Part shown: positions 1 to 8,740 of the stretch, in pieces
Numbering within the stretch: the first letter of the stretch is position 1
How the letters are laid out: each line of letters starts with the position of its first letter
Source: Vicingaceae bacterium
Lineage (GTDB): Bacteria; Bacteroidota; Bacteroidia; Flavobacteriales_E; Vicingaceae
Assembly: GCA_018402765.1 (NCBI GenBank)
Contig: JAGYIE010000001.1
Location: 124,001 to 188,000 of the forward strand
Length of the DNA: 64,000 nucleotides
Direction of reading: 5' to 3'
Program-made: the position numbers and the translations under genes
The notes under the pieces: model-generated
Told to the model about the DNA's origin: nothing
Databases searched by the model: none
Seen by the model: the letters and a program-made list of their open reading frames with translations, nothing else

Positions 1-423
1 GACAATGCTGCAATACACCGTAATATTTATGATAGTTCTTCAGAAAGTAGACTGCGATTATTAGGATATTCGATAAGTGAGAAAATGCAATTATTTTTAG
101 ATCATGGCTTTGCTATTATTGGCCTTTCAGAAGAAGAATTACAACGATTTAATTACCAAAAAGGCGATACGGAAGGAATTGTAAATTTTCCATTATCCAT
201 TCAAGAAGTTAAAGTCTCGGTATTCCTATCAGCAAAAGATGACAAAGTAAAAATGTCGTTTAGATCTAAAAGCGATATTGCAGTTAATTCAATTGCTAAT
301 ACTCATTTTAGCGGCGGTGGCCATGCGAATGCAGCTGGTGGAATTTCTTCTTTACCTTTAGCCGATACAATTGAAAAATTAATAGAACTCCTAAAAGAAA
401 GTTTTCCAATTGAAACAAAATGA
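1..423 (+). CDS. DHH-family phosphoesterase (NrnA-like), C-terminal part
   Basis: The reading frame is open from base 1, so the gene starts outside the window and only about 140 C-terminal residues are visible. The glycine-rich motif GGGHANAAGG near the end is the hallmark of the DHHA1 domain, which binds the substrate in NrnA-type oligoribonuclease/pAp phosphatases. Members degrade short RNA oligomers (nanoRNA) and dephosphorylate 3'-phosphoadenosine 5'-phosphate in the cytoplasm. The catalytic DHH domain lies upstream and cannot be checked. The stop codon lies just ahead of the GldI-like lipoprotein gene; this DHH-gldI neighbourhood is known in Flavobacteriia. The family call is firm, the exact substrate is inferred. 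Confidence 0.88.
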   Translation, partial: DNAAIHRNIYDSSSESRLRLLGYSISEKMQLFLDHGFAIIGLSEEELQRFNYQKGDTEGIVNFPLSIQEVKVSVFLSAKDDKVKMSFRSKSDIAVNSIANTHFSGGGHANAAGGISSLPLADTIEKLIELLKESFPIETK

Positions 424-430
424 TAGCAAC

Positions 431-955
431 ATGAAATTCTCATTACTAATTACAGTTTTAATGTTTATCATTTCTGCTTGTAATAGCCAAGAGCAAAAAA
501 AAGAATTGCCATACACCACTAAAGCTGATTTTGAAGAGTCAATGATTCAGTCACACAAACGCTTTATAGAAAAAACTTCTATAGCTATTACCGCTTATAT
601 TGATAGTTCAGACCATAACTTTTTTTCTTCGGGCACAGGACTTCGCTATGCAATTCTTAAAAAGGGATTTGGGGCACAACCTAAAAAGGGGAATGAAGTA
701 AAAATTAATTACACGATTCAGTTTTTAGACGGAGAAGCTGTGATGGAGTTTGACACACCTAAGTCAATTTCTTTTTTTATAGAACAATCTGATGTAGAGA
801 CAGGTATGCATGAAGCGCTCCAATTAATGAAGGTTGGCGAGAAAACAGAATTTATATTCCCACCTCATTTAGCATTTGGTATAAGTGGCAATAGAAATGG
901 TATTCCTCCTCAGTCTACTTTAGTGTATACAATTGAACTTGAAGCTATCCGATGA
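431..955 (+). CDS. gldI: GldI-like FKBP-type peptidyl-prolyl isomerase lipoprotein
   Basis: About 174 residues. I chose ATG 431 over the in-frame ATG at 410 because it gives a clean lipoprotein signal (MKFSLLITVLMFIISAC, lipobox ISAC) and starts just after the upstream stop. A single FKBP-like domain occupies the C-terminal half (INYTIQFLDG ... GIPPQSTLVYTIEL). The active-site tryptophan of FKBPs (usually in GWDEG) is replaced: the sequence reads GMHEAL, so catalysis may be weak or absent. GldI is a lipoprotein needed for gliding in Flavobacterium and probably assists folding of periplasmic or secretion proteins. Position after a DHH gene supports the call. It could also be a generic FKBP lipoprotein. 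Confidence 0.72.
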   Translation: MKFSLLITVLMFIISACNSQEQKKELPYTTKADFEESMIQSHKRFIEKTSIAITAYIDSSDHNFFSSGTGLRYAILKKGFGAQPKKGNEVKINYTIQFLDGEAVMEFDTPKSISFFIEQSDVETGMHEALQLMKVGEKTEFIFPPHLAFGISGNRNGIPPQSTLVYTIELEAIR

Positions 956-1824
956 GAAAAATCATTTATTTGGGAATAGCAATACTCATGTTTTCATGTA
1001 ATCGAGAAACTAAAAAGTTCGATATCTTAAATGACCAGTCAACTTATCAGTTGATTGCATTTGATGGAAATAGGGTTAAACCAACAGAAGGTCAATACGT
1101 AGCCACTTATTTAACCATAGTTGATTCATTAGGTGATACCATTCATTATGTCCCTTCGTATCATTATTTTATTGAATATTATAATGAGTCCCCAATTTAT
1201 GAAATTTTGAGTGAGCTATCTATTGGAGATTCTGCTCATTTTCAGGTTTCTGAAGGGCAACTTTATGATGCCTTTAGTTTTAATCGATTAATCGAAGGCA
1301 GTAAAAATAAGGTAGAATTGAGGATTAGGGCTGAGTATTTGGTTAATGAAGATCGGGTAAAGGACACCCTTATGGAAGAGCTAAGCCAACGAATTGAATC
1401 AGAGAAACAATTAATTTGGAATTATTTGAATAATGATGTTGATCCCCAGGCTTACTATGAACAATTAGGTTTATACAAGAAAAATACGCTAAAGTCGATA
1501 GAAGGAATCCAAATTAAAATGGGTGATCAGGTTACCTTAGAATATGAAGGCAGCTTTTTGAACGGATATGTATTTGATAAAAAATATGGTCCTGACGCTT
1601 TGGAAATTACCTATGGGATGAGTGATCAAATTCTTTCGGGATTAAGTATCGGAATTAAAGGAATGCGAGCAGGCGAAAGTGTGAAAATTATATTACCTTC
1701 GCACTATGCTTTTGGAGCGAGAGGTTCAATTAAAGGTATTGTTCCGCCTTATACTCCGGTAGTTTATAATTTATCTATAAAAAACGTAACACGTACAGAC
1801 AACAATGAAAAAGAACGTAATTAA
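952..1824 (+). CDS. FKBP-type peptidyl-prolyl isomerase-like lipoprotein
   Basis: 290 residues starting with a lipoprotein signal (lipobox MFSC). Residues 30-130 look like a degenerate FKBP-like fold, and the C-terminal 100 residues form a clearer FKBP domain (LEYEGSFLNGYVFD ... GIVPPYTPVVYNL). The usual GWDEG active-site loop reads GLSIGI, so the key tryptophan is missing. It overlaps the preceding gene by 4 bp (ATGA) and the next by 20 bp, so it sits in a translationally coupled array. Probably a periplasm-facing folding factor; a chaperone role without isomerase activity is possible. Confidence 0.8.
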   Translation: MRKIIYLGIAILMFSCNRETKKFDILNDQSTYQLIAFDGNRVKPTEGQYVATYLTIVDSLGDTIHYVPSYHYFIEYYNESPIYEILSELSIGDSAHFQVSEGQLYDAFSFNRLIEGSKNKVELRIRAEYLVNEDRVKDTLMEELSQRIESEKQLIWNYLNNDVDPQAYYEQLGLYKKNTLKSIEGIQIKMGDQVTLEYEGSFLNGYVFDKKYGPDALEITYGMSDQILSGLSIGIKGMRAGESVKIILPSHYAFGARGSIKGIVPPYTPVVYNLSIKNVTRTDNNEKERN

Positions 1825-2689
1825 AGGTATTTCAGCTGGATTAATTTTATCAGTAGCGATGATATCATGTGGTGAAAAACCTGAATATCCTGGTTTTTCT
1901 AAAATAGAGGAAGGATTGTTTATCAAATACGAATCAAGAGTAGAAGGTGAGCGAGAAGTAGAGTTTGGAGATATTTTAAGTATGGATTTAAAATATGGCA
2001 CTAAAGACTCTACCTTAATGGATACCAAAGAAAACGGAAATCCTTTTCGTTTACAAGTTGACAGTGGTACTTTTGTTGGCGATATCATGAATGCATTTAG
2101 CATTTTGAGAAATGGAGATAGTGCTACAGTTATTACAGGGGCTTACGATTTTTTTACAAAAACAGTAGGTGCTCAAATGCCTGATTTTATTGACTCTGCA
2201 GAAGCATTATATTTTACAATTAAGTTAAACAGAGTTGAATCTCAAGAAGAGGCTAAGCAAAAAGCGGAAGCGGAGAATGCTCAAGCTGCACTCATAGAGC
2301 AAGAAGAGTTAGCCGCTTATATTCAGTCAAACGGAATTACTGTAGAGCCAACTGCTAGCGGTTTATATTACATTTCTACTGAAGCGGGGAATGGTAAAGC
2401 TGCTGAGGCAAGTAAAAAAGTAAAAGTTCATTACACAGGTAAATTTTTAAATGGTCAAGTTTTTGATTCTTCTGTTGATAGAGGGGAGCCGTTTGAATTT
2501 ACGTTAGGTGTAGGGCAGGTAATCCGTGGATGGGATGAAGGTATCGCAATGATGAAAGTAGGAGAAAAGGCTACTTTAATTATTCCTTCAAGTATCGCTT
2601 ACGGTCCTCAACAAAATGGACCAATACCTGGATCTTCTACGTTGGTATTTGATGTCGAATTATTAGACGTTTCAGAAGCTGCAGAATAA
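1805..2689 (+). CDS. FKBP-type peptidyl-prolyl cis-trans isomerase lipoprotein
   Basis: 294 residues with a lipoprotein signal (lipobox MISC). An N-terminal degenerate FKBP-like region (about 30-140) is joined by an alanine/glutamate-rich helix to a canonical C-terminal FKBP domain (about 195-290). The active-site residues are intact there: VHYTGKFLNGQVFDSS, VIRGWDEG, IPSSIAYG and LVFDVELL. It should catalyse prolyl isomerisation in the periplasm. The start overlaps the upstream gene by 20 bp and the stop overlaps the next start by one base (TAATG), consistent with one operon. Confidence 0.9.
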   Translation: MKKNVIKGISAGLILSVAMISCGEKPEYPGFSKIEEGLFIKYESRVEGEREVEFGDILSMDLKYGTKDSTLMDTKENGNPFRLQVDSGTFVGDIMNAFSILRNGDSATVITGAYDFFTKTVGAQMPDFIDSAEALYFTIKLNRVESQEEAKQKAEAENAQAALIEQEELAAYIQSNGITVEPTASGLYYISTEAGNGKAAEASKKVKVHYTGKFLNGQVFDSSVDRGEPFEFTLGVGQVIRGWDEGIAMMKVGEKATLIIPSSIAYGPQQNGPIPGSSTLVFDVELLDVSEAAE

Positions 2690-3510
2690 TGAGTGAAATC
2701 ACAAAAATAGCAACACTGCTTCTCGGTATTACCTCTTTAAGTGCATGCAGTGTACTACAAAAAAGCAATGAAAAGGAAGTAGTCAGAAAGCTAAATCAAC
2801 CCGTTACTTCAGTTTCTGGATTAACTTACACTCTTACTGAGTTAGGTTCAGGGGAAACAGTTGATAGCGGAGATGTTGTAACCGTTCATTACACAGGCTT
2901 TTTAACTAACTCAACTAAATTTGATTCATCTAAAGACCGTAGTAAACCTTTCACTTTTAAAGTAGGTTCAGGTCAAGTAATCGAAGGGTGGGATGAAGGA
3001 TTAAGTTATTTGAATGTGGGTGATAAAGCCACTATTAACATACCATCTGCGTTAGGTTATGGAGAAAGAGCTCAAGCAGCAATTCCTGCAAATTCTGATC
3101 TAATTTTTGATATAGAAGTATTGGAAAGAAAAGAAGGTGCTAAGCCTTACGATGTTGAAGGGTTAGATACTATCTTACTAGAATCTGGTCTTAAGATGAT
3201 TATGTTAAAGTCACTTCCTGGAAATCCTCAACCTGTATCTGGCAATTTAGTCTCTGTAGATTATTCAGGTTATTTAACCGATGGAAAGTTATTTGATTCC
3301 TCTGTTGATCGAGGAGAACCAATTAAATTCCCTGTTGGGAATGGACGAGTAATCAGAGGTTGGGATGAAGCAATTTTATTACTTCATAAAGGAGAAAAAG
3401 CACGATTAATTATTCCATCAGAATTAGGATATGGAAGTAAAGGGGCAGGTAATGTTATTCCGCCCAATGCAACACTAATATTCGATGTAGAATTAATAGA
3501 AATTGACTAA
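2689..3510 (+). CDS. Tandem-domain FKBP-type peptidyl-prolyl isomerase lipoprotein
   Basis: 273 residues with a lipoprotein signal (lipobox LSAC). It holds two complete FKBP domains, about 40-150 and 165-273. Each keeps the catalytic pattern: VHYTGFL/FDSS/GWDEGL in the first and VDYSGYL/FDSS/GWDEAI in the second. Both end in the typical LIFDIEVL/LIFDVELI strand. Last gene of the FKBP array, followed directly by a strong hairpin terminator. The double domain suggests a processive or bivalent foldase for exported proteins, which is an inference. Confidence 0.9.
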   Translation: MSEITKIATLLLGITSLSACSVLQKSNEKEVVRKLNQPVTSVSGLTYTLTELGSGETVDSGDVVTVHYTGFLTNSTKFDSSKDRSKPFTFKVGSGQVIEGWDEGLSYLNVGDKATINIPSALGYGERAQAAIPANSDLIFDIEVLERKEGAKPYDVEGLDTILLESGLKMIMLKSLPGNPQPVSGNLVSVDYSGYLTDGKLFDSSVDRGEPIKFPVGNGRVIRGWDEAILLLHKGEKARLIIPSELGYGSKGAGNVIPPNATLIFDVELIEID

Positions 3511-3665: not shown

Positions 3666-5213
3666 ATGGAAAAATTTGATTTATGCGTAATTGGTGGTGG
3701 TCCTGCAGGTTATGCTGCTGCTATGCGTGCAATGGATTTCGGCAAAAAGGTAATTCTAATCGAAAAAGCCAAGTTGGGTGGTTACGGAATTTATGATGGT
3801 GCCTTGGCTTCTAAAACGATGTGGGAGTTATCAAATAAAATTAGAACCGTAAGAGAAACAATTGGTCAGGATAAACGGATTGATATGACCTTCGAGGAGG
3901 TTAAAACAATTATTGAAGAAGCTTTATTTGAGCGTAAATTTCAACTTTCTTGCCACCTTCGAATTATTCATGCAGAGACAAATTTAATTACCTACGAAAG
4001 AGGTTTAGCAAGTTTTATTACTTCTAAAGAAATAAATATTGAAAAGCAAAATGGTGAAAAACATACCATTTTTGCTGATAATACAATCATTGCTACAGGA
4101 AGCAGACCTCGGGTTATACCTTCTATAGATGTTGACGAGAAAACAATAATGACTTCTGATGGAATTCTGCATTTAGATGAATTTCCAAAAAGTATGGTAA
4201 TTCTTGGTGCAGGTGTAATAGGATGTGAATTTGCAGCTATGTTCTCTAATTTTGGTCAAACCAAAGTGTACTTAATTGATAAAGCTGATCGAATTCTTCC
4301 TTTTGAAGATCAAGATGTTGCTGATATGGTTGCAACTAATTTAGAAGAGAATGGTGTAGTAATACACCGAGGTTCTCAGTTGATTAGAATGGAACATAAA
4401 GATGGGGGAGTAGAGTACGAGCTAGAAAATAAAGATGGCACTCGTGAAGTCATTCAAGTGGATAAGGCACTTTTATCCATAGGTAGAGTTCCAAATTATG
4501 AGAATTTAAATCTTAGTAATGCCGGTGTTTCTATGAGTAAGCGTGGAGTGCATATTGGTGACGTAGATACGCAAACAAACATTCCACATATTTATGCAGT
4601 AGGTGACGTTTCAGGAAATATGGCGCTTGTTAATATTGGGGAGCGCGAAGCTCGTCACGCAGTAGTTAAAATGTTTGCAGATTTTCCTGTTAAACCAATT
4701 CGCTATTCCAATATATCTACAATAATGTTTTTAAATCCTGAGGTTGCGGCTGTAGGGATTAATGTCCAGCAAGCTGCTGAACAAAATATTCCAATTCGAG
4801 TTTCTAAAGTAGATTACTCAACAATTGCTAGGGCAATCGCAATGCGAAAGACGAATGGATTCTTTAAAATTATTGTTTCTGACGATGATGATATGAAGGT
4901 TCTTGGAATGCGTGCAGTAGGTGAACACGCCTCTAGTGCAATCCAATCAGTCGCTTTATTAATGTATATGGGCAAGGGAATTGATGAGTTGGCGCATATG
5001 ATTCACCCTCACCCTTCTATAGTCGAAGGTATTCAAGAATGTGTTCGGATGTTATTGGGTAAAAGTGTTTATAAATCGTCTGTGTTTAAAGACAAACTAA
5101 AATGCTACCGTCTGGTAAATGGTGAAAAAATGCCATTAAACATTATCGAAAAGTCCCGAGGAATGACACACGTAGAAAATGTTTCTAAATATCATGAATA
5201 CAAAGAGGACTAA
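3666..5213 (+). CDS. FAD/NAD(P)-dependent disulfide-reductase-family oxidoreductase lacking the redox cysteines
   Basis: 515 residues with the layout of dihydrolipoamide dehydrogenase and soluble transhydrogenase (SthA): FAD-binding GGGPAGYAAAMRA at 10-22, NAD(P)-binding GAGVIGCEFAAMF near 185, second FAD motif TNIPHIYAVGDV near 300, and a dimerisation domain with HPHPSIVEG near 445. The helix that normally carries CxxxxC (GGTCLNVGCIPSK) reads GGYGIYDGALASK, so neither redox cysteine is present. SthA keeps one cysteine at this place; this protein keeps none. It therefore probably moves hydride between NAD(P)H and another acceptor rather than reducing a disulfide. A TAACTTTG motif at 3624-3631 resembles a Bacteroidota -7 element. 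Single gene, convergent with the next. Confidence 0.8.
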   Translation: MEKFDLCVIGGGPAGYAAAMRAMDFGKKVILIEKAKLGGYGIYDGALASKTMWELSNKIRTVRETIGQDKRIDMTFEEVKTIIEEALFERKFQLSCHLRIIHAETNLITYERGLASFITSKEINIEKQNGEKHTIFADNTIIATGSRPRVIPSIDVDEKTIMTSDGILHLDEFPKSMVILGAGVIGCEFAAMFSNFGQTKVYLIDKADRILPFEDQDVADMVATNLEENGVVIHRGSQLIRMEHKDGGVEYELENKDGTREVIQVDKALLSIGRVPNYENLNLSNAGVSMSKRGVHIGDVDTQTNIPHIYAVGDVSGNMALVNIGEREARHAVVKMFADFPVKPIRYSNISTIMFLNPEVAAVGINVQQAAEQNIPIRVSKVDYSTIARAIAMRKTNGFFKIIVSDDDDMKVLGMRAVGEHASSAIQSVALLMYMGKGIDELAHMIHPHPSIVEGIQECVRMLLGKSVYKSSVFKDKLKCYRLVNGEKMPLNIIEKSRGMTHVENVSKYHEYKED

Positions 5214-5228
5214 ATTTTAGTCCTCTTT
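5202..5228. terminator. Bidirectional hairpin between convergent genes
   Basis: A 13-bp inverted repeat (AAAGAGGACTAAA / TTTAGTCCTCTTT) overlaps the last codons of the flavoprotein gene and precedes the stop of the minus-strand peroxidase gene. T-rich DNA follows on the plus strand (5236-5242). The tract on the minus side is weaker. Confidence 0.65.
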
Positions 5229-5240
5229 AATATCCCTTTT

Positions 5241-6374
5241 TTATGGTCGAAATGCAGGATTCGTAACAAACTCCTCATCTGATAGCGCCTTTAGGAATGC
5301 AATTAAATCTGACTTCTCTTGTGATGTAAGGTTAATTATGTGACCATTAGCACCTGTTCTATGAAACATATCAGGGCTGATATTTGGTGAATTGGGATTT
5401 ACACCTGTAGTGTAAAAGTTGATTACTTCTTCTAATGTTGCAAATCGTCCATCATGCATATAGGGGGAAGTGTAAATTAGATTCCTCAATGAGGGTACTT
5501 TAAATTTTCCAATATCATAAGGCTGTTTAGTTACGGCCGCAAGTCCAGAGTCAGGGATAGCATCCAAACCGTTGTTTCTAAAGCTGTAATCTGTCCAATT
5601 AAAATTAAATTTTCCACCGTGGCAGTGGCCACAATCGCCTCTTTCAGGGTCATCAAACACTTCAAATCCTCTTCGCTCTTCTGCTGTCATAATTGCTCCC
5701 GTAACTGGAAATCCAAAATCAGCTGCGAATTCATTATCAGGATGCGTATTTCCTGAAATCAGGGTCCGTTCAAATTGTGCAAGTGCTTTTGTAATAATTA
5801 CAGAATCTATTGGCTCGTTCGGAAACGCTTTATCGAAGTCTTTTACATATGTGGGATCTCCTTGTAGCTTTTGAGCAACATTTTTCCACGTTTCCATCAT
5901 TTCAAGCGGATGAGCAACAGGCATTAATGCTTGTTCTTCTAGCGAGTTTGCAGATCCATTCCAGTTGAATTTATCTGCATAAATTAAATTGAAGAGTGGC
6001 ATAGCATTGATTATACCTGGTTGTCCTTGAGCACCTAAACTAAATGCTACACCTTTATCATTAAATGAATTAGCAGGATTATGACAACTACTACAAGAAA
6101 TAGAATTGTTTATTGATAATCTTTTTTCATAAAATAGACGCTTTCCCAATGCAATACCTTCAACTGTTAGTGGATTGTCTGCCGGGATATTTAATGGTGT
6201 TGTTGAGCTTGAGAATAGTGGAGGTAATTTTAATGAATAGGGAGTAGGCGTATTATTAGTTGGACAATTACTGCAAGGAATAGGCTCTATAGGATCGTCA
6301 TCACTGCAAGCTGTAAATGCAGAAACCCCAAATATAAGCAATACAATAATTTGATATTTTTTCAGGTGTTTCAT
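5241..6374 (-). CDS. Di-haem cytochrome c peroxidase / MbnH-MauG-like lipoprotein
   Basis: 377 residues, exported as a lipoprotein (Cys23 in FTAC). Two c-type haem motifs are present: CSSCH at about 94-98 and CGHCH at about 248-252. Family landmarks include GKRLFYEKRLS, FERTLISG and the C-terminal PSLRNLIYTSPYMHDGR. These periplasmic enzymes use peroxide and high-valent haem to oxidise a partner. The neighbour downstream of its promoter side is an MbnP-like protein. In methanotrophs and relatives, the MauG homologue MbnH oxidises a tryptophan of MbnP to create a copper site, so this is the likely job here. A plain cytochrome c peroxidase is the alternative. Last gene of a four-gene minus-strand cluster. 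Confidence 0.88.
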   Translation of the reverse strand: MKHLKKYQIIVLLIFGVSAFTACSDDDPIEPIPCSNCPTNNTPTPYSLKLPPLFSSSTTPLNIPADNPLTVEGIALGKRLFYEKRLSINNSISCSSCHNPANSFNDKGVAFSLGAQGQPGIINAMPLFNLIYADKFNWNGSANSLEEQALMPVAHPLEMMETWKNVAQKLQGDPTYVKDFDKAFPNEPIDSVIITKALAQFERTLISGNTHPDNEFAADFGFPVTGAIMTAEERRGFEVFDDPERGDCGHCHGGKFNFNWTDYSFRNNGLDAIPDSGLAAVTKQPYDIGKFKVPSLRNLIYTSPYMHDGRFATLEEVINFYTTGVNPNSPNISPDMFHRTGANGHIINLTSQEKSDLIAFLKALSDEEFVTNPAFRP

Positions 6375-6424
6375 TTTATTGGATTTTAAATAAAGAGCCT
6401 ACTAAAAAAGTAGACTCTCTACAA

Positions 6425-7222
6425 TTACTTCTTTCTTACAGTAAACACATCTCTGCCGTTGGTGTTCAAAAGTCGTTGGGCATCATAAATTGGCATTATA
6501 CCGGGTCCATATACATTAAAATCCCAGTTTACAGGATTAGTATACCATTCATTGATATCAATAGTAAATTCCAATTCGAAATCAACATTGCCTACTGTAA
6601 AACTTGAATTAGGAATCAGTACATCAAAATGATTTGCAACGTAAGCTGTACCTGAAGAGTCAATTTTTCGTGCCGTACCCATATGTGTAGCAAAAAAACG
6701 ATCACTGTTTGTTGAATCAACAAATTCACCTTCTAACTGCATAAAGTGGTATCCACCTCCCAACATCCCTGGCCAGTTCCAATTCGCAGCATTTAAGTCC
6801 GGATAGATTCCATCTGTGTTATCCTCCTCATTAAAACCAAACGTATAAGATATCCCGCTATATACTCCTTGAGGAACTAATTTTGAAGGATTAAATGTGA
6901 ATGTTTCAGGTTTAGAAAAATCGACAAAAAAGTATTCATCAAATTCAATTTCTTCACCATTTAATTGATGTAGAGTAACATTTGAAACTAAATAACGCAA
7001 TTTGCTCACATTATATACTTGTCCTAAAGCATTAGTATAAGGTTTATTAGTCGTATTGAGCATTAGTGTGTCATTTCCTGACATATGATTAAAACGAATA
7101 CTTGCACTTTGTGAAGGAGTTGCAGGTGTTATTGGGTCCTCATCTTCATCATCACATGAGCTTAGGCTTGTTACTGCTCCAAAAGCAGCTATTATTAGCA
7201 TTGATTTAAAAATTGTTTTCAT
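6425..7222 (-). CDS. MbnP-like copper-binding lipoprotein
   Basis: 265 residues with a lipoprotein signal (lipobox LSSC, Cys23). The body matches the MbnP family pattern: an opening beta strand (SIRFNHMSGNDTL), VSKLRYLVSNV, a mid-region NWNWPG followed by GYHFMQLEGEF, and a DVLIPNSSF strand. MbnP proteins are extracytoplasmic copper binders whose conserved tryptophan is oxidised by a di-haem partner. The Trp-rich NWNWPG segment is the candidate region for that residue. It lies 50 bp upstream of the di-haem peroxidase gene and 21 bp downstream of the barrel gene, so co-expression is likely. The family call rests on motif memory. Confidence 0.8.
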   Translation of the reverse strand: MKTIFKSMLIIAAFGAVTSLSSCDDEDEDPITPATPSQSASIRFNHMSGNDTLMLNTTNKPYTNALGQVYNVSKLRYLVSNVTLHQLNGEEIEFDEYFFVDFSKPETFTFNPSKLVPQGVYSGISYTFGFNEEDNTDGIYPDLNAANWNWPGMLGGGYHFMQLEGEFVDSTNSDRFFATHMGTARKIDSSGTAYVANHFDVLIPNSSFTVGNVDFELEFTIDINEWYTNPVNWDFNVYGPGIMPIYDAQRLLNTNGRDVFTVRKK

Positions 7223-7243
7223 ATTATGGTCGTTTTAAGTGTA

Positions 7244-8239
7244 TTAAAAATAATAATTTAATTCTGTAATCAATCGCATTCTGTTTTGAATTTGATTGTC
7301 ATTTAATTGTTGGTAAAGCGGATTAAAGTAAGTCATCCCAATGGATACTTTTTGATAGAAAGCTGTTAGACTTACATTGCCAAATACTGTTTCTCCTCCC
7401 GAGTTTCGGTAAGGTTCTCCATTGTCTGTATCTCTATTACTTACTTCATACGCTGCACCTATTGTTGGCATTAATTTTACAGTCTTTAGTTCTTTAATGT
7501 AGAATAAAGACGGATTAAAATTGAAACGGTTGGCAAACCTGAAATTATTTTTATTGGTTGTATTTAATTTATAGCTTAAGTTAGTGTTTAAACCCCAATT
7601 GTCGCGCATTATTACACCTTCTAAAAATAAAATAAAATCTACACTTCCTGTGCCTGCTTGCATGTGTGGATCAAGGTGATTTTCCGGATCACTATAGTAG
7701 ACTCCTTTAGTATTCGAACTAACAGGATAATATTGATAGGTCTTGTTGAAAGTACCTGTAGGTAGTTTTAAACCAACTCCTGCGGTTAACCGTTTAACCC
7801 ATTCACTGCTGTCATTGCACAGTTTACTATTATACAACTGATATTTCGCCATAACTACTAAATCTCCGGGGCCGGCAATTGATTGTGTAATACTATCATT
7901 TCTGCCTATGTAATTATCCGAGAATGATAAGGAAGCATTTAGTTGAACTCTAGATGTTAGAAAATACCTAAACCAAAGATCATAACTGTTAAATACTTCT
8001 TGTAAACTGTAGTCTTCAAATGAAAACTCTTCTCCATGCTTGTTCAAGCTTGAGTTTGGAACAGTTGCTAAAAAATCACTATCGAATGAGCGGTATCTAT
8101 GGACTATACCAAAGGAACTTTGATAATCATCTGGACGAATACCTACATATATATTGCACAAATCGCAAGCATAAATATTGTTGCTAAGAAGACTCAATAA
8201 TCCTAATATCAACAGCTTTAGCTGTTTTTTAATTAACAT
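7244..8239 (-). CDS. Predicted outer-membrane barrel protein with CDLC N-terminus (MbnP neighbour)
   Basis: 331 residues. A hydrophobic signal sequence ends at NIYA, and the predicted mature protein begins with CDLCNIYVG. The rest alternates short amphipathic strands with turns and ends in an aromatic residue (ELNYYF), typical of outer-membrane beta-barrels or porin-like transporters. The CxxC at the mature N-terminus could bind copper or form a disulfide. Proteins with a CDxC start are common beside MbnP genes. Proposed role: handling of the metal or electron partner used by the MbnP/MbnH pair. Function not established. Confidence 0.7.
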   Translation of the reverse strand: MLIKKQLKLLILGLLSLLSNNIYACDLCNIYVGIRPDDYQSSFGIVHRYRSFDSDFLATVPNSSLNKHGEEFSFEDYSLQEVFNSYDLWFRYFLTSRVQLNASLSFSDNYIGRNDSITQSIAGPGDLVVMAKYQLYNSKLCNDSSEWVKRLTAGVGLKLPTGTFNKTYQYYPVSSNTKGVYYSDPENHLDPHMQAGTGSVDFILFLEGVIMRDNWGLNTNLSYKLNTTNKNNFRFANRFNFNPSLFYIKELKTVKLMPTIGAAYEVSNRDTDNGEPYRNSGGETVFGNVSLTAFYQKVSIGMTYFNPLYQQLNDNQIQNRMRLITELNYYF

Positions 8240-8299
8240 ACAATAATTTCTTATATGAGAAAATTAGCCAATTTAAATGGCCTGTAGCGATAAGAAATA

Positions 8300-8686
8300 T
8301 TATGCTTTTGGAGGATTCTTTGCGGGTTGTTTAAATCCATCACTTATTGAGTTATTAATAACACGATAAGAAAGTATTTCAGATGGAATTGGGGTAGTAT
8401 TTAAAGTGATTTCACTGTAAAAAAGCGTGATTGTTCGTTCTTCTTTATTTGGTTTATCATCGCCATTTCTTTCCTCATCAGCCGTCTTAAGTTGATTCAT
8501 TTGCTGCATAAAGTGACATTGACCTTCACAAGCTAATTGAGGTTTGTCTTTGTTTATACAGAAGGTTTCAGTAATGTATTCTCTGTTTAATTGAAAATTA
8601 AATGTAACAAATGAATAATGAAAAGTACCTACCAAAAACAATGGCAAGATCACAAATGAGGACAATATTTGCAGTACTTTTAACAT
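8300..8686 (-). CDS. Small single-pass membrane protein with cysteine motif
   Basis: About 128 residues from ATG at 8686. An upstream in-frame start at 8728 would add 14 residues ahead of the hydrophobic helix, so the inner start is preferred. One membrane segment near the N-terminus is followed by FCINKDKPQLACEGQCHFMQQ, with a CxxxC pair, and a charged tail. Small proteins with this cysteine signature are frequent in Bacteroidota near metal and cytochrome genes, but I know no assigned function. It is the first gene of the minus-strand cluster, 60 bp ahead of the barrel gene. A TACTTTTG motif (8692-8699, minus) sits directly before the ATG and would give an almost leaderless transcript. Confidence 0.65.
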   Translation of the reverse strand: MLKVLQILSSFVILPLFLVGTFHYSFVTFNFQLNREYITETFCINKDKPQLACEGQCHFMQQMNQLKTADEERNGDDKPNKEERTITLFYSEITLNTTPIPSEILSYRVINNSISDGFKQPAKNPPKA

Positions 8687-8705: not shown

Positions 8706-8740
8706 AAAAAGTAATCCTTTTGTGACATTTGTTACTTTTT
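8706..8740. promoter_or_regulatory. Inverted repeat between divergent genes, candidate operator
   Basis: A perfect 9-bp inverted repeat (AAAAAGTAA / TTACTTTTT) with a 17-bp spacer lies between the copper/haem cluster and miaA. The spacer contains a smaller imperfect palindrome, GTGAC-N4-GTTAC. It overlaps the expected promoter region of the minus-strand cluster. No regulator is known from the sequence. Confidence 0.4.

Follow-up and report, generated by a model that had tools for sequence, protein, structure and literature searches.

A four-gene MbnP/MbnH cassette of a Vicingaceae bacterium headed by a putative nascent-chain copper sensor

CruR of Bordetella pertussis, a protein of DUF2946, senses copper as a nascent chain by means of a Cys motif, a stall at the C-terminal RAPP, and a conserved spacing; it heads operons that include MbnPH-like genes besides TIGR01778 receptors, and the protein itself escaped detection in proteomes (PMC9426467). 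CutF of Rhodobacter capsulatus exerts its effect by an mRNA stem located where the next gene starts, and copper strengthens the stalling; CutF-like proteins are reportedly abundant in Bacteroidota (PMC9973294). The copper site of MopE/CorA is composed of two His and a kynurenine, and the protein is co-transcribed with a MauG-like protein (PMC3912023). Little is known about copper passage over the outer membrane and copper sensing in Bacteroidota. Here we analyzed a stretch of 64,000 nucleotides from a Vicingaceae bacterium (assembly GCA_018402765.1, contig JAGYIE010000001.1, positions 124,001 to 188,000; the whole stretch is termed the window below), in which four minus-strand genes lie in series with short gaps and code for a small Cys protein, an outer-membrane barrel, MbnP, and an MbnH-like haem protein, as listed below. 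No publication describing this four-gene cassette was found in a literature search.

8300 to 8686, minus strand: small exported Cys/Pro-Pro protein of 128 aa, starting with MLKVLQ, first gene of the operon (alignment; no family above cut-off)
7244 to 8239, minus strand: FapF/COG4313-like 12-strand outer-membrane barrel of 331 aa (AlphaFold model, Foldseek, and VIA structure comparison)
6425 to 7222, minus strand: MbnP lipoprotein of 265 aa, belonging to the GYH clade described below (PF20243; AlphaFold model, of which the top PDB match is 7l6g)
5241 to 6374, minus strand: MbnH/MauG-like di-haem lipoprotein of 377 aa (CCP_MauG and NCBIfam profiles; PDB relative)

The cluster had been pointed out in an earlier note made from the sequence, and the co-occurrence count called for there found the cassette recurring in two gene orders (see below for the details). 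We regard, with moderate confidence, that the operon serves copper-responsive copper acquisition or envelope copper handling and is headed by a nascent-chain sensor.

The putative sensor is the small protein, of which two elements are central to the argument.

8516 to 8560, minus strand: Cys motif C43-x9-C53-x-G-x-C57, invariant in the family alignment
8309 to 8314, minus strand: codons of Pro125-Pro126, putative site of ribosome arrest, two residues ahead of the C-terminus

The gene was taken to start at position 8686 (MLKV...) in preference to the alternative ATG at 8728, from which the longest open reading frame (ORF) begins, as the relatives in the alignment start near MLK. Neither Pfam nor NCBIfam had a family matching the protein above cut-off, and HYC_CC_PP (NF047658) gave no match in NCBIfam at E 1. 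Pfam DUF6693 was tried and rejected, as its matches (E 0.05-0.13) were below cut-off and lay mainly over the hydrophobic segment. The only invariant residues in the family alignment are C43, N45, C53, G55, C57, P125, and P126. Every one of the 56 relatives had a CX(5-9)CXGXC-type motif, which in the window protein includes the CEGQC remarked on in the earlier note. Pro-Pro stood among the last 12 residues in 56/56, as compared with 1.9% in a set of 806 other ORFs; at least three Pro in a row were found in 32% of the same 56 proteins. The profile by which later members were collected includes the Pro-Pro columns, a mild bias, while the first 16 members had been picked up from the barrel next to them and by general sequence matching, and Pro-Pro occurred in 16/16 of them. 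The distance from the Cys motif to Pro-Pro was nearly constant (66.5 +/- 2.6 residues; range 61-72) over a poorly conserved linker. A hydrophobic segment scoring above 1.6 was detected in 82% of the small proteins, and the following gene lay on the same strand in 55 of the 56 loci, being the barrel, MbnP, or often a TonB-dependent receptor. The family thus shares the traits of the CruR/CutF-like class, namely a length below 150 aa, export, a Cys motif, a C-terminal Pro-Pro, conserved spacing, and a position upstream of metal genes. The spacing of about 66 residues suggests that the Cys motif could pass the translocon and read periplasmic copper, an argument on reach that is based on general nascent-chain lengths.

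The earlier note had suggested that the small protein may be the inner-membrane part of a metal route. In its fuller form, this would make the protein a membrane-anchored Cu(I) chaperone between the barrel or MbnP and acceptors in the inner membrane, which accords with the three invariant Cys and the His next to them that follow a hydrophobic N-terminal segment, as well as with the linkage of the family to copper-type genes. Nevertheless, we judge it unlikely, since it leaves unexplained the Pro-Pro in 56/56 relatives, the near-fixed distance to the Cys motif, and the RNA stem between the Pro-Pro codons and the barrel start, and since CruR, which has the same design, is regulatory and undetected in proteomes (PMC9426467). 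The Cys motif, fixed spacing, C-terminal Pro-Pro, pre-barrel position, and stem altogether make it more likely, by analogy, that the small protein is a nascent-chain copper sensor of the CruR/CutF type.

Nor is the family restricted to MbnP loci, as the small genes also precede TonB-dependent receptors. TIGR01778, a copper receptor model, was the best NCBIfam model, below its cut-off, for 7 of the 10 adjacent receptors tested; 57 of 150 small-protein places had a TIGR01778-like gene at a distance of at most 6 kb, and of the 20 strongest TIGR01778-like genes, 12 adjoined a small gene. In a survey of 296 genomes spread over Bacteroidota, the small-protein family was wider (118 genomes) than MbnP (78 genomes). 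In three receptor-type operons (L080:5261-6184, L092:4089-4937, and L096:5421-6218), YtkA-like (PF13115) lipoproteins were found between the small protein and the receptor.

The gap between the small gene and the barrel gene holds an RNA element that fits the sensor reading.

8246 to 8298, minus strand: 9-bp RNA stem, ATTTCTTAT (8290-8298) paired with ATAAGAAAT (8246-8254), from the stem search

The stem runs from just past the stop codon of the small gene to six bases before the barrel ATG, and a ribosome on the Pro-Pro codons would cover the stop codon and abut the 5' arm. Relatives were scored for a stem of at least 7 pairs that begins 6-20 nt past the first Pro codon and closes at most 26 nt upstream of the next start, the expectation being obtained by shuffling the gap alone with dinucleotides kept. 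Such a stem was present in 15 of 21 small-to-barrel gaps (4.6 expected) and in 5 of 10 gaps from the small gene to genes of families other than these four, in most cases receptors (1.2 expected), while the control gaps between MbnP and MbnH gave 3 of 17 (3.0 expected). The strict criterion was set after structures of the window type had been seen, which is a weakness, and a looser test yielded 40 of 51 against 30 expected; some of the loci are near-copies, making the significance optimistic.

We then consider the copper protein itself. The lipoprotein encoded at 6425-7222 matched PF20243 with 98.7 bits (cut-off 27), and a search of the organism's own genome agreed; the earlier note had staked the MbnP assignment on such a match. 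TIGR04052, the MbnP_like_WxW equivalog, gave 23.2 bits, below its cut-off of 140 bits, as was the case for the other MbnP of this genome (39.8 bits). A broad family profile found the solved MbnP 7l6g (E 1.9e-11) with the WxW and His region aligned, the WxW of the profile lying against GMAWNWQAG of 7l6g; a single-sequence PDB search had returned chance matches only, and a first, narrower profile had missed 7l6g. Furthermore, the AlphaFold model (predicted local distance difference test, pLDDT, 88.6) had six 7l6g chains as its only matches with E <0.001 in the whole PDB. Three sites are of importance.

6773 to 6781, minus strand: WxW motif W148-N-W150 (family alignments; profile against 7l6g)
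6683 to 6685, minus strand: His180, candidate copper ligand, invariant in three MbnP alignments and lying opposite the VHVG His of 7l6g in the profile alignment
6746 to 6748, minus strand: His159 of GGGYH, candidate replacement copper ligand, in 20/20 clade members (single origin, 100/100)

The first Trp of WxW was kept in 64 of 65 MbnPs, and the oxidisable Trp that the earlier note expected near the ligands is thereby present as W148, the expected kynurenine precursor by analogy with known MbnP. The copper site of MbnP from Methylosinus trichosporium OB3b is reportedly made of His, Met, solvent, and kynurenine. A Met two residues before the first Trp, which is probably that Met ligand, occurred in 39 of the 65 MbnPs, none of them with a His after the following Gly-Tyr; Gly-Gly-Gly-Tyr-His occurred in 20, none of them with that Met, and 6 had neither feature. 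The window MbnP belongs to the latter 20 and has A146 in the place of the Met, which is absent from 20/20 members; the missing Met is a point of difference and no exclusion from PF20243. The 20 sequences formed one clade with a support of 100/100, one origin, and a stem branch of 1.71 changes per column. Thus, the loss of Met and the gain of His count as one evolutionary event, not 20. We propose that the copper site of the window protein probably comprises His180, kynurenine-148, and His159 in place of the usual Met, and the alignments suggest that the GYH clade has a Kyn-His-His site like that of MopE/CorA.

The exchange of Met for His may alternatively mean that the protein binds no copper any longer, or binds another metal, as might be expected from the very long branch of the clade and the loss of the second Trp in two members. 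This appears quite improbable to us in the light of the first Trp and His180, both invariant throughout the clade, the MbnH-like gene near MbnP in every clade locus listed, and the copper association of the linked small-protein family elsewhere.

The partner that would oxidise W148 is encoded at 5241-6374. The protein matched CCP_MauG with 169 bits, its best NCBIfam model was TIGR04039 ('MbnH family'; 247.3 bits, under the curated cut-off of 362.85), and the best solved relative in the PDB search was MbnH 6e1c (E 3.5e-48). As in di-haem proteins of the MbnH/MauG type, the sequence has two CXXCH motifs, and the position of MauG Tyr294 is occupied by Tyr.

6081 to 6095, minus strand: first haem motif, CSSCH (ORF translation and alignment)
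5619 to 5633, minus strand: second haem motif, CGHCH (ORF translation and alignment)
5412 to 5414, minus strand: Tyr321, equivalent to MauG Tyr294 (alignment with MauG and MbnH structures)

Tyr321 aligns with Tyr294 of MauG, the low-spin haem ligand in that protein, and with a Tyr in 6e1c, the numbering being counted on the printed alignment. Altogether, the profile searches bear out the MbnP/MbnH pair proposed in the earlier note, with PF20243 above its cut-off and TIGR04039 as the best model albeit below its own.

The barrel matched no Pfam or NCBIfam family, and PF13557 was unmatched at E 1, while a cassette relative (L068) matched PF13557 with 42.5 bits (cut-off 22). The AlphaFold model (pLDDT 81) is a 12-strand barrel, for which Foldseek returned FapF 5o67 (E 1.5e-11) and the VIA comparison with the COG4313 channel 4rl8 gave a Z of 24.4 and 2.6 A over 246 residues. 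A sequence profile against the PDB had reached FapF only at E 0.5, and the fold search settled the assignment.

8156 to 8167, minus strand: CDLC, mature N-terminus of the barrel, residues 25-28 directly after the signal peptide (barrel alignment)

C25-D26 is invariant and C28 near-invariant in the barrel alignment, and nearly every linked barrel had CDxC. Upstream of the Cys, the sequence is more in keeping with ordinary signal cleavage than with a lipobox. An outer-membrane place for a barrel with CDLC as its mature N-terminus, as previously suggested, is likely from the model and the fold matches.

The order small protein-barrel-MbnP-MbnH was kept in relatives down to 20-30% identity, and a second order, small protein-MbnP-MbnH-barrel, was found in other Bacteroidota. 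The cassette is not a chance grouping because both orders recur across the phylum. Among the 102 MbnP places in the 296 genomes, the small protein lay within 8 kb in 43 and the barrel in 33. No methanobactin genes were recognised in the cassette. There are departures in single loci. One relative (L032:5509-6222) has a broken remnant of the barrel and no small gene detected beside it, with MbnP and MbnH intact; in a congener (L023:5277-6321) the barrel is in two overlapping frames by a frameshift or an assembly error; and L026:1-6801 is expanded, one small gene and one barrel being followed by MbnP-like and MbnH-like genes in three copies each, with WDV replacing WxW in one MbnP copy.

We propose the following mechanism. 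The small protein would be exported as a nascent chain, of which the Cys motif would sense copper and the C-terminal Pro-Pro would stall the ribosome; by analogy with CruR, the stall would take place in low copper and be relieved by copper binding. The stalled ribosome would hold open the computed stem, which would otherwise close just upstream of the barrel start, and the downstream genes would be made under copper scarcity. The CDLC barrel would then act as a pore of the outer membrane, with Cu(I) being handled by the Cys pair at the periplasmic face. Judging from the homologs, MbnH would oxidise W148 of MbnP to kynurenine, which would complete the copper site with His180 and probably His159, so that Cu(I) could be captured and delivered within the envelope. 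Expression under copper scarcity is favoured because the small-protein family leads import-type receptors. The genome has two genes for heme-copper oxidases, which require copper, and TIGR01778 had no match in it at E 1e-15; the two observations fit the need for another copper route.

The operon could instead protect against copper, by envelope sequestration or export via the FapF-like pore, if copper strengthened the stalling and turned the operon on. CutF acts in that sense and, as here, its stem lies where the next gene begins (PMC9973294), and FapF itself is an export channel. On the other hand, the small-protein family precedes receptors best matched by TIGR01778, a copper import model, and the genes listed in the cassettes, some of which were scanned, included none that was recognised as coding for an efflux pump. 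Protection is in our view somewhat unlikely.

Several observations weigh against a sensor-headed copper acquisition operon as we propose it. DUF2946 (PF11162) was unmatched at E 10 in ten members of the small-protein family, and RAPP is absent; with no such match, we propose that the protein works like CruR/CutF while standing outside that Pfam family. The stem was not enriched in gaps between the small gene and MbnP (1 of 11 versus 1.2 expected), and the mechanism may differ where MbnP follows the small gene. General fold energy failed to separate the gaps, being low after the small gene (z -2.3) but lower still after MbnP (z -4.1; 21 loci); as low energy is common to both gap types, it was dropped as evidence and the placement of the stem was tested instead. 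The stable fold after MbnP perhaps lowers MbnH relative to MbnP. The barrel fold resembles channels of several substrates, so that copper as the cargo rests on context. Both the small protein and the barrel were missing from 55 of the 102 MbnP places. Their co-occurrence with MbnP is thereby borne out in many loci, as frequent rather than obligatory partners. Finally, the sequence by itself is compatible with both uptake and protection.

As to the surroundings of the operon, two further hairpins were read from the sequence.

6394 to 6418, minus strand: hairpin AGAGTCTACT...AGTAGGCTCT with a T-rich run behind it, in the mbnP-mbnH gap
5202 to 5228, no strand: hairpin AAAGAGGACTAAAATTTAGTCCTCTTT, between mbnH and the converging Pyr_redox gene

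The former is a possible partial terminator, which the pattern scan did not list; the latter, a perfect hairpin at the mbnH end, is likely a bidirectional terminator. A miaA-type gene, named by eye, diverges at one flank of the cluster. A sigma-70 promoter scan gave no more matches than chance. On the plus strand beside the operon (410-3510 of the window), four consecutive genes code for FKBP-type or FKBP-like lipoproteins.

The same genome has a second MbnP-MbnH locus without a barrel (L021:5998-9566; G000:C1, about 673.0-676.6 kb), which codes for an HYC_CC_PP protein (NF047658), an MbnP with a type IX secretion system (T9SS) sorting tail, and two MbnH-like proteins. Here too, a small Cys protein comes first and has Pro-Pro close to its end, and the MbnP keeps the canonical MxWxW with the usual Met. 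A further HYC_CC_PP gene (L150:3287-6407; G000:C1, about 589-592 kb) precedes genes for a small protein that matches HMA weakly and for a TonB-dependent receptor; this is probably another metal operon led by a Pro-Pro small protein.

The cassette would extend control of the CruR/CutF type to MbnP/MbnH operons of Bacteroidota, with a probable role, as candidate nascent-chain sensor, for an unnamed small-protein family that about 40% of the Bacteroidota genomes sampled possess. It also offers a candidate outer-membrane copper channel and a copper protein with a natural ligand exchange beside the kynurenine site. Taken jointly, and only tentatively, these proteins could represent an arrest-peptide class of Bacteroidota that senses copper in the periplasm and gates the operon, its Cys motif being about 66 residues away from the arrest site and hence just able to enter the periplasm with the ribosome still bound to the translocon, together with an MbnP rebuilt from Kyn-His-Met to Kyn-His-His in convergence on MopE/CorA, and a dedicated copper channel independent of TonB.

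Compared with MbnP/MbnH of M. trichosporium OB3b (7l6g and 6e1c; TIGR04052 and TIGR04039), the window shares both families, adjacent to one another, as well as the WxW and the invariant His; it differs in that its members are Bacteroidota lipoproteins below both NCBIfam cut-offs, with the Met before WxW missing and a new His after Tyr. The small protein resembles CruR in being the first gene product, with an export signal, a Cys motif, a C-terminal Pro-Pro, and conserved spacing, and its family shares the context of TIGR01778-like receptors and MbnPH-like genes. In contrast to CXXC and RAPP in CruR, it has CX9CXGXC and neither RAPP nor DUF2946; the distance from Cys to the arrest site is about 66 residues in the family and 45 in CruR, and the short gap with a stem stands against a 162-bp gap with Rho-dependent termination. 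With CutF, it has in common the small size, export, Cys, a proline-rich end, and a stem over the start of the next gene, whereas CutF controls a multicopper oxidase, and MbnP, MauG, and the barrel family are unnamed in the main text of PMC9973294. HYC_CC_PP proteins are likewise small, with Cys residues and with Pro-Pro close to the C-terminus, and one of them heads the second MbnP-MbnH locus of this genome; their Cys motifs, HYC and CC, are unlike that of the window protein. The barrel shares the 12-strand fold of FapF and the COG4313 channel (5o67 and 4rl8; PF13557) at about 16% identity, and is distinct in its CDLC N-terminus and its copper-operon context. The ligand set of MopE/CorA is the one predicted for the GYH clade; unlike MopE/CorA, the window protein has MbnP as its best fold match, with no MopE/CorA chain among the listed sequence or fold matches.

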